Positions 29,093 to 33,770 of a stretch of 64,000 bases of DNA are shown here, one piece after another (within the stretch, counting starts at the first letter, position 1; each line of letters opens with the position of its first letter). The stretch is from positions 225,374-289,373 of the forward strand of contig NZ_WFLM01000003.1 in NCBI RefSeq assembly GCF_009208775.1, written 5' to 3'. The DNA comes from Silvanigrella paludirubra (GTDB taxonomy: Bacteria > Bdellovibrionota_B > Oligoflexia > Silvanigrellales > Silvanigrellaceae). A model generated the notes under the pieces. The model was not told where the DNA came from. It ran no database searches and worked only from the letters and a program-made list of their open reading frames with translations. The translations under genes and the position numbers were made by a program.

Positions 29093-29108
29093 TGTTTCAC
29101 GTGAAACA
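29093..29108. promoter_or_regulatory. parS centromere site 1
   Basis: TGTTTCACGTGAAACA, a perfect 16-base palindrome that matches the consensus ParB site TGTTNCACGTGAAACA exactly. About 108 bases upstream of the parB start. Confidence 0.95.
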
Positions 29109-29311: not shown

Positions 29312-29327
29312 TGTTTCACGTGAAACA
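29312..29327. promoter_or_regulatory. parS centromere site 2
   Basis: TGTTTCACGTGAAACA, identical to site 1, and inside a 20-base palindrome (29310-29329). 219 bases from site 1. Two copies in one gap suggest a ParB loading hub near the replication origin side of the chromosome. Confidence 0.95.
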
Positions 29328-29591: not shown

Positions 29592-30416
29592 ATGCATTCA
29601 CCTCGTTCAAAGTTAATATCTATTTTAATTAGAAAAAAGTTATATGAAGAAATAGGACACATAATTTCTATAACGAGGCAAGGTTTTGATGTTCATGTTA
29701 AAACAGACTTTATTGAAATTCAGGAGCTACTAATTGATCTTCTAGAAAATGAGATCAATTCAAATTTAATTGATATAAATTTAGTTAGAGATCCAAAAAT
29801 TCTAAATAGTGATAAAGTATCAAATTCTAATATTACTTCTTTAAAACCAACTATTTTAATACATACTGAATGTTTAAGTAGTGGATATGGATTTGTTAAA
29901 TATAAAGTACCATCTCCTGATTCCTTATTGAGTTCTACATCCTCAGCGATTGAAAATATATTGGATTATTTTGGATTATCCATTTTTTTAGATGCTTTTG
30001 ATTCCGATCTACTTTCAAAATTGAAACAAATAGCTAAGACATTAGGTTTAGCTATATTAATTGATGCCGTAGTTCAAACTGCATATTATGGAGGCTTTCA
30101 TGGAGATAAAAATAGGTCACTTCAGTATCTAGATAGCATTCAATTAAATAATGATGAAATTTATAGCAAAATTAGTGTTCCTATAGAAAAATGTGCAGAA
30201 ACATTTTTTTCTTACGTTATGCTTCAAGGCGAGGACGCTCATACATTTTTAAAGTCAAGTTTGAGTTACTATGCTGTAAAACTTCAAGGCTTCTCAATGA
30301 CTAGGGCAAGTCAGGTTTTGCAAATTTCTAGAACAACCCTTCAAGAACATCTTAAACTAGCGGATCAACTTGGGGTATCTAATTTTTTTGAAGGATATAG
30401 ACAAAAAACAATTTAA
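29592..30416 (+). CDS. Unknown protein with C-terminal Fis-like helix-turn-helix
   Basis: 274 residues, AGGAG 6 bases upstream. No recognised catalytic domain. The middle is hydrophobic-helical (about 110-190). The last 45 residues read GFSMTRASQVLQISRTTLQE and on, resembling the HTH_8/Fis C-terminal DNA-binding helix pair (MTRASQVLQISRTTLQEHLK). It lies between the parS sites and the ATP synthase operon. It may be a regulator of the atp genes or of segregation; this is inference. Confidence 0.55.
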   Translation: MHSPRSKLISILIRKKLYEEIGHIISITRQGFDVHVKTDFIEIQELLIDLLENEINSNLIDINLVRDPKILNSDKVSNSNITSLKPTILIHTECLSSGYGFVKYKVPSPDSLLSSTSSAIENILDYFGLSIFLDAFDSDLLSKLKQIAKTLGLAILIDAVVQTAYYGGFHGDKNRSLQYLDSIQLNNDEIYSKISVPIEKCAETFFSYVMLQGEDAHTFLKSSLSYYAVKLQGFSMTRASQVLQISRTTLQEHLKLADQLGVSNFFEGYRQKTI

Positions 30417-30612: not shown

Positions 30613-31620
30613 ATGGCAGGCTCACTAGATATATATCCGTTTCATGACACTGAAGGTGCCATAAGGTTTGGTATTCAGATTGGAATTTTTTTGGTTGGTG
30701 TTATTATTGCTCAAAAACTTATCATTGGACCTGCAATAAAACTTCATATTGAACGTAAACGCAGAACAATAGGTGCTACAGAAGCGTCAAGACTAGAAAA
30801 TGATAGAGCTAAAAAACTTGAAATGGAATATTTAGCTCAATTAAAAAAAGGTGCTGAAGAAGCTAAAAGCTTAAGAGCGCAAGAAATTTCTGCTGCTCAA
30901 AAAGCAGCAAACAAATTAATTTCTGAAAATCAAAAAAAGGCTGATGCCTACTTAAATGAAGTTCGTGATCATCTTTCATCTGAAATAAATCAAGCTAAAT
31001 CTAATCTTCCTAGCCAAGTTAAAGATCTTGTTTCAACAATTTATAAAAAAATTGGCGTTGCATTACTCCTTGCTATTATTGGATATAAAGGTTTTATTGA
31101 ATCTTCTCCTGCATTAGCCGCATCAGGAACCGGTGAAACATCTTTTTGGTATAGTGTTTTTTGGCCCTATTTCCAGTTTGTAATTTATATTGGTGCTCTT
31201 GTTCTTTTTGCGCGCAAGCCAATTGCTGCAATGCTTGATAAAAATAGAAATGAGTTAAGAGCTCGTCTATCTGAAGCAAAAGAAGCAAGTATTTTGGCAG
31301 AACGTAAAGTTAAAGAATATGAAGCTCAAATTGCCTCATTAGAAAAAGAAATTGCAGAATTAAAAGAGCAGAGTCTTTTTGATGCAAAAATTGAGCGAGA
31401 TAAAATTATGTCAGATGCTGCCAAAGTTTCTGAATCTATTTTAAAAGATGCAGAGCGTGCTGCAAAAGAACTTATAACTCGTAGCAAAGAAGAAATTCGT
31501 CAAGAATTATTTAATTTGGCTCTTCATGAAGTTGAAAAATCTCTTACTCCTGAACAGTTGCATACACTTGATTCAAAACTCAAGTCAGAGACGATTGACG
31601 GAATAAAAACGCTCAATTGA
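30613..31620 (+). CDS. atpF: ATP synthase fused b'-b stator subunits
   Basis: 335 residues, twice the normal length of an F0 b subunit. Residues 1-140: N-terminal membrane span (IGIFLVGVIIAQKLI) with charged coiled coil (GATEASRLENDRAKKLEMEY), the b' type. Residues 141-175: KKIGVALLLAIIGYKG followed by SSPALAASG, just like a signal peptide with an ALA-A cleavage site. Residues 175-335: second span (FQFVIYIGALVLFARKP) and a long coiled coil with ending HEVEKSLT, the b type. In related bacteria b' and b are separate genes and b carries such a signal. The chain would cross the membrane three times unless cleaved after ALA. GAGG lies 8 bases before ATG. Confidence 0.85.
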   Translation: MAGSLDIYPFHDTEGAIRFGIQIGIFLVGVIIAQKLIIGPAIKLHIERKRRTIGATEASRLENDRAKKLEMEYLAQLKKGAEEAKSLRAQEISAAQKAANKLISENQKKADAYLNEVRDHLSSEINQAKSNLPSQVKDLVSTIYKKIGVALLLAIIGYKGFIESSPALAASGTGETSFWYSVFWPYFQFVIYIGALVLFARKPIAAMLDKNRNELRARLSEAKEASILAERKVKEYEAQIASLEKEIAELKEQSLFDAKIERDKIMSDAAKVSESILKDAERAAKELITRSKEEIRQELFNLALHEVEKSLTPEQLHTLDSKLKSETIDGIKTLN

Positions 31621-31665: not shown

Positions 31666-32232
31666 ATGAATAAATTTTCTGGTCCTCTCGCAAGACGTTA
31701 TGGGACTGCACTGTTTGAATGTGCAATTGAAGCATCTCAAAAAGGTGATCCTAGTTTGTTTGAAAGCTATGTTGAAGCTTCTAGAACTTTGATGACTATT
31801 TTTAATAAAAAAATGACTTCATTTTTTATTAATCCGACTTTATCAATTGAAGAAAAAAAACAACTTCTTGATACAGTTCTTAATAAAATATTTGTCAATA
31901 AAAAAATTCCTTCAGAGTTATCTGATTTTTTAAAATTAATGTTAGAAAATCACCGCTTCTCTGAATTACAAATGGTTTTAAAAAACTTTTTAATTAGAGC
32001 AGATGAATATGCAGGAGTAGCAAGAGCTACAATTATTTCTGCAAGTAAGTTAAATGAAAATGGAGAATCCGAATTTTCTTCCGTTCTTCATAATGTTTTA
32101 AATAAAAAAATAATCCTCGAATCGAAGGTAGATGAATCCCTACGTTCTGGTTTTATTATAAAAGTTGGAAATACAAACGTGGATGCGAGTCTGCGTTCTC
32201 GTCTTTTGAATCTTAAAGAGTCTTTGAGTTAG
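31666..32232 (+). CDS. atpH: ATP synthase F1 delta subunit
   Basis: 188 residues, the normal size of the stator delta (OSCP) subunit, which links F1 to the b stalk. Seen: [14 protein letters not shown] near the N-terminus, an all-helical N-domain, and the C-terminal [26 protein letters not shown], in which [11 protein letters not shown] is the typical 'l.gG.iikigd.viDgSvrgrL' motif. Follows the fused b'-b gene by 45 bases. Confidence 0.93.
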
Positions 32233-32243
32233 GAGTTGAATTC

Positions 32244-33770
32244 ATGGAGCATATCCGGGTTGATGAAATAAGCCAATTATTAAAACAAAAAATTCAGGCT
32301 TTTGGACAAAAGGCAGAAGTATCTGAAACAGGCACAGTTGTGTCTATTGCAGATGGCATGGCTCGAATTTACGGCCTTGAAAAAGCAATGATCAGTGAAC
32401 TTATCACGTTTGAAAACGGGGTTAAAGGTATTGTACTTAACCTTGAAGAAGATAACGTTGGTGTTGCTGTATTTTCTGGGGCAGAAACTGTTCGTGAAGG
32501 TATGCAAGTTCGCCGGACTGGAAACGTAAATAGTATTCCAGTAGGTCCACAGTTATTAGGCAGAGTTGTAAATGCTTTAGGTGAGCCTATTGATGGCCTA
32601 GGTGAATTAAACTCAAATGAAATTTCTCCTGTTGAAGTAAAAGCACCCGGTATTATGGCACGTAAAAGTGTTCATGAACCAATGCAAACTGGAATTAAGT
32701 CAATTGACTCTATGATTCCAATTGGGCGCGGACAACGTGAGCTTATTATTGGTGACCGCCAAACAGGAAAAACAGCAATTGCTATCGATACAATCATTAA
32801 CCAAAAAGGTAATGGTGTTAAATGTATCTATGTTGCAATTGGACAAAAATATTCAACAATTGCACAGGTTGTTGAAAAACTTCGCCGCGCAGGAGCTCTT
32901 GAGTATACAACAATTGTTGTTGCTGGTGCCTCCGAGGCTGCAACTCTACAATTTATGGCTCCTTATACGGGCTGTACAATTGGTGAATACTTCCGTGATC
33001 GTGGTGAACACGCGGTTGTATTTTATGATGATTTAACAAAACACGCTCAAGCTTATCGTGAGCTTTCTTTATTACTTCGTAGACCTCCAGGTCGTGAAGC
33101 ATATCCTGGTGACGTATTTTATCTACACAGCCGTTTATTAGAGCGTGCATGTAAATTAAATGATGAATTAGGTGCAGGAAGTTTAACAGCTTTTCCTATT
33201 ATTGAGACTCAAGCTAATGATATCTCAGCATATATTCCTACAAACGTAATTTCTATTACAGACGGTCAAATCTTCTTAGAAGCTGACTTATTTAATGCTG
33301 GTATGCGTCCTGCTGTAAATGCTGGTCTATCCGTATCTCGTGTGGGTGGAGCTGCTCAAACTGGCGCAATGAAACAAGTTGCAGGTAATCTTCGTCTTGA
33401 ATTAGCTCAATATCGTGAGTTGGCTGCATTTGCTCAATTTGGTTCCGATCTTGACGCCGCAACGCGTAAGCAAATTAACCGTGGTCAAAGATTAACTGAA
33501 TTGCTTAAGCAAGCTCAATACTCTCCATTGCCTATGGAAAAACAAGTTCTTACTATTTTTTCAGCTATTAATGGCTATTTAGATAACATTGAAGTGCGTT
33601 TCGTAGGTGCTTTTGAGCGTCAAATGCTCAATTATTTTGAAGCTACTCATAAGAAAATTTTAGATGAAATTGCTACAGGTAAGAAAATGAGCAACGAGTT
33701 GCAAGCGGAAATTAAAAAAGCCCTTGACGATTTCGCAAAGAGGTTTGAACCAAATGCCAGCAAGTCTTAA
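32244..33770 (+). CDS. atpA: ATP synthase F1 alpha subunit
   Basis: 508 residues. The non-catalytic nucleotide subunit of F1. Seen: GDRQTGKT P-loop (about 169-176), [40 protein letters not shown], and [15 protein letters not shown], all family standards. AGGAG lies 6 bases before the ATG. Its end overlaps the atpG start by 17 bases. Confidence 0.98.

Follow-up and report, generated by a model that had tools for sequence, protein, structure and literature searches.

In ATP synthases whose peripheral stalk contains both b' and b, the two are usually separate chains. In Silvanigrella paludirubra (order Silvanigrellales, class Oligoflexia, phylum Bdellovibrionota_B), the 64,000-nucleotide stretch of DNA analysed here, referred to as a whole as the window, raises the question of whether both subunits are encoded by one gene and, if so, how such a chain could give rise to a working stalk.

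A single gene for b' and b

Positions 30613 to 31620 of the window (plus strand) hold a single open frame of 335 aa (ATG at 30613, TGA at 31618-31620; no internal stops), which encodes in tandem a full-length b' followed by a full-length b. The b' half comprises residues 1-146 (30613-31050) and the b half residues 170-335 (31120-31617; transmembrane segment at about 183-202, then a long helix), while residues 147-169 (31051-31119) form a joining segment. In each half, a transmembrane helix is followed by a long stalk helix, according to hydrophobicity and AlphaFold2 models (helices 13-139 and 191-310). A profile search of the organism's own genome assigned the b half to PF00430 (ATP-synt_B) with 40 bits, above the cut-off of 28, and matched the b' half with 23.7 bits (E = 1e-4), below that cut-off; across the order, PF00430 was matched by 14/14 fused proteins. 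The original prediction of a stop-free frame with two complete b-type subunits was thus borne out. No second PF00430 gene was detected by the profile search in this 3.93 Mb, 98% complete genome, and since both matches lie within the fusion frame, neither b nor b' can be recognised as a separate gene in this cell.

As expected of the ATP synthase b/b' family, the genes for delta and alpha adjoin the fusion. Downstream lies atpHAGDC (delta, alpha, gamma, beta, epsilon), starting with atpH (31666-32232, plus strand), which encodes the stalk's partner atop F1 and adjoins the fusion in nearly all relatives, and continuing with atpA (32244-33770, plus strand), the next gene of the operon. Subunit a is encoded outside the window (G000:C4:197821-198432, minus strand), on the strand opposite to the F1/b'b operon and about 58 kb away from it; the ATP synthase operon is therefore split. 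Upstream of the fusion are a ParB gene (minus strand) and, directly adjacent, the gene for a 274-aa protein (29592-30416, plus strand) whose C-terminus shows a weak Fis-type helix-turn-helix. At 29093-29108 and 29312-29327, next to parB, lie two perfect parS sites (TGTTTCACGTGAAACA). The 84-aa ORF that contains both is spurious, its MFHVKQ repeats being simply the translated sites; parS sites next to parB suggest that the ATP synthase operon is close to the chromosome origin.

Distribution and origin of the fusion

A search of the order recovered the fusion as one uninterrupted frame in all genomes (15/15; 6 genera, 2 families), including single-contig assemblies, with identities to the window protein ranging from 75% down to 28% (Spirobacillus cienkowskii, 73%; Fluviispira multicolorata, 65%; one Silvanigrellales MAG, 33%). 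A sequencing or assembly error joining two genes, recognised from the outset as something that would undo the fusion, is excluded by this recurrence for all practical purposes, and the fusion stands. Outside the order, 43 further genomes of the class were searched, and none of the approximately 40 with matches carried it; b' and b were tandem separate frames wherever both could be resolved, and a few genomes yielded one only. An apparent 324-aa fused frame in one genome of the class (G018) was rejected, as a TAA separates its two genes. The phylum-level search consisted of the same 58 genomes as that of the class, and the distribution result covers this phylum.

Delta and alpha follow in nearly all fused and unfused loci, with parB nearby in most, and this shared context indicates that the two kinds of locus are orthologous. 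As the fused b halves form a clade in the tree (support 0.964), one fusion event at the base of the order would be the simplest history. All loci examined in the order have the 274-aa protein directly upstream of the fusion (26-57% identity in relatives), and no match to it was found where b' and b are unfused in the class; it is possibly an order-specific regulator of roughly the same age as the fusion.

The joining segment and the fate of the chain

In a joint alignment across the class, the C-termini of unfused b' coincide with the start of the fusion's hydrophobic run, the last ~70 residues being gapless, and the N-termini of unfused b lie shortly before a conserved PY-x-N motif (WPYFQF in the fusions), directly past the joining segment. 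Because unfused b' ends before this segment and unfused b starts after it, the fusion amounts to both subunits in complete form with 23-25 added residues between them. Counted from the PY motif to the C-terminus, b is 151 residues long in the window protein; the median for unfused b is 154. The window join consists of KK, the hydrophobic run IGVALLLAIIGY (residues 147-158, or to 163 if taken at its longest) and then ESSPALA/ASG, where the slash marks the predicted signal peptidase I site ALA/A, between residues 169 and 170 (31111-31122); the A-x-A itself occupies residues 167-169 (31111-31119). On these alignments, the hydrophobic, signal-peptide-like segment is specific to the order. Its reported succession of basic residues, hydrophobic core and signal peptidase I-like site was confirmed, and the segment is conserved across the order. 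The accompanying claim that related bacteria have such a signal peptide at the N-terminus of b failed, however, unfused b of the same class and phylum having none. Inheritance of the segment from a b signal peptide of close relatives was likewise rejected, given that unfused b in this class begins immediately ahead of the PY-x-N segment.

We then asked whether the added residues look like a cleavable signal peptide. Basic residues (KK, K, R) precede the segment, so that an internal n-region, a hydrophobic run and an A-x-A site are all present. The apolar run is 12-18 residues long in 13/14 fused proteins and poorly conserved in sequence among relatives, and the joining segment is mostly less hydrophobic than both true transmembrane helices of the order's fused proteins. 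An A-x-A occurs within the 11 residues examined in 10 of the 14 fused proteins, compared with 7.4% of control windows taken elsewhere in the same proteins, and in 6 of 9 representatives (binomial p ~1e-5); a relaxed small-x-small motif is found in 13/14, with G/S variants in four relatives. On a crude site-scoring matrix built from 19 signal peptides of E. coli, on which the true ones score 13-25, the window's own site scores ~0, relatives reach up to 13, and two fall below 0. The window protein also has a long polar stretch of ~8-11 residues between the hydrophobic run and the site. We regard the sequence evidence for a working cleavage site as good for the order, but only moderate for the window protein.

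The dimensions of the stalk bear on the same question. In known enzymes the stalk links membrane subunit a to delta at the top of F1 (PMC4593670, PMC6131620), and the two b membrane helices flank subunit a on opposite sides (PMC6377231). In alignments to solved b subunits, where profile positions serve as residue numbers and are accurate within a few residues, residues 14-144 of the fusion's b' match Bacillus PS3 b 11-141 and residues 17-142 match E. coli b 10-135 (of 156), both at the same length and without gaps; in the chloroplast b' chain (129 residues), 6-127 match 21-142 of the fusion, and its last residue corresponds to residue 144. AlphaFold2 (14 sequences) predicts a single continuous helix over residues 13-139, with high confidence mid-helix, and a joint (143-190) with pLDDT <50. 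Some 100 helical residues of b' would thus stand above the membrane (~150 Angstrom at 1.5 per residue), with ~7 residues left to the next membrane segment. The end of b' cannot then be both atop F1 and in the membrane, which means that the chain must be cut or else b' must fold back; cutting appears the more likely, and a normal stalk could hardly be formed by a chain left uncut.

Of the two readings offered by the original prediction, cleaved and uncleaved, the first is favoured by the conserved A-x-A and by this geometry. Specifically, we propose, with a probability of roughly two in three, that the fusion is a stator polyprotein cut by signal peptidase I, from which b' is freed by a second cut, and that b' and b then pair as a normal stalk. 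We infer the membrane topology, both cuts and their order. The b' part would enter the membrane so that its N-terminus lies outside and its long helix is cytoplasmic; the joining hydrophobic segment would act as an internal signal peptide, returning the chain across the membrane, so that the transmembrane helix of b would also insert with its N-terminus outside. Signal peptidase I would cut behind the A-x-A (ALA/A in the window protein), releasing a b of ordinary length (calculated 166 residues, 18.95 kDa) from a b' with its remnant (18.5 kDa). As signal peptidase I alone leaves the C-terminus of b' tethered, a second cut is needed, a requirement that the original prediction overlooked. This step would remove the C-terminal remnant of b' through an S2P/RseP-type, an SppA-type or a cytoplasmic protease, and b' trimmed to residue 146 would have a calculated mass of 16.2 kDa. 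The freed b' and b would pair 1:1 in a normal b'b stalk reaching delta atop F1.

The genome encodes candidate proteases for both steps, namely four signal peptidase I, one M50/S2P and two SppA-type (S49) enzymes. The four signal peptidase I genes (PF10502) lie on contigs C6, C3, C9 and C1 of the assembly (G000); E. coli has a single lepB. RseP clears signal peptides from the E. coli membrane (PMC8144685), and in Paracoccus denitrificans the N-terminal residues 1-17 of b are removed (PMC4593670). Whether two successive membrane cuts, by signal peptidase I outside and then by an intramembrane or cytoplasmic protease, make stator assembly depend on signal-peptide processing throughout the order is, in our judgement, evenly balanced.

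If the chain instead stayed uncut, the b' helix, a joining transmembrane helix and the b helix would cross the membrane three times in one polypeptide with a fixed 1:1 ratio, and the joining segment of several relatives is indeed hydrophobic enough to cross the membrane fully or almost fully, while the cleavage site of the window protein is weak. Yet the C-terminus of b', expected near the top of F1, lies only ~7 residues from the next membrane segment, b' would have to fold back as a hairpin, and the A-x-A has been kept where it would have no obvious use; this arrangement fits a conventional stalk poorly, and we consider it unlikely. Another protease, cytoplasmic or membrane-bound, might be the main cutter, for instance at the disordered joint (140-146), the segment then staying on b as an uncleaved signal anchor. 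If only the b' end were cut, the C-terminus of b' would be released, as the geometry demands, and the low signal peptidase score of the window protein would fit, but this reading leaves the conservation of the A-x-A unexplained and gives b an extra membrane helix that unfused b does not have, and we give it a small chance. An internal translation start yielding a second product beside the full-length chain is very improbable, for although in-frame ATG, GTG or TTG codons occur close to the join in some relatives, their positions are not conserved, and no such codon occurs in the window gene between residue 124 and the transmembrane segment of b, which makes a separate start of b at a usual codon impossible.

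Known systems and significance of the fusion

Both halves resemble F-type b/b' subunits (PF00430; chloroplast and cyanobacterial, Paracoccus) in being full-length, in each having a single transmembrane helix and a long stalk helix, and in being encoded beside delta and alpha; here, in contrast, they form one chain, with an extra signal-peptide-like segment as the joint. A bioenergetic polyprotein with an internal signal peptide has a precedent in Bradyrhizobium FbcH (cytochrome b/c1), a membrane polyprotein whose internal signal peptide is cut by signal peptidase and whose second product is a periplasmic-facing cytochrome. FbcH belongs to another complex, whereas the second product of the fusion is a cytoplasmic stalk helix and the first also needs release at its C-terminus. 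Natural fusion of peripheral-stalk subunits is itself known from the delta-b proteins of Actinobacteria, such as Gordonia and Mycobacterium (PMC5709465). Their partner is delta, however, and not b'. The delta-b fusion is not known to require re-insertion of a second membrane anchor by means of an internal signal peptide. The searchable literature on ATP synthase evolution and the peripheral stalk yielded descriptions of delta-b fusions only and none of a b'-b fusion, and the genome paper of S. cienkowskii makes no mention of ATP synthase.

With a signal peptide built into a conserved fusion, b' and b would be locked at a 1:1 ratio, and assembly of the stalk would be coupled to membrane proteolysis. 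The fusion also provides a natural test of whether the stalk helices need to be separate chains. Should the chain stay whole, the accepted reach of b' to the top of F1 would fail in these bacteria, so that both outcomes, cut or uncut, are informative.
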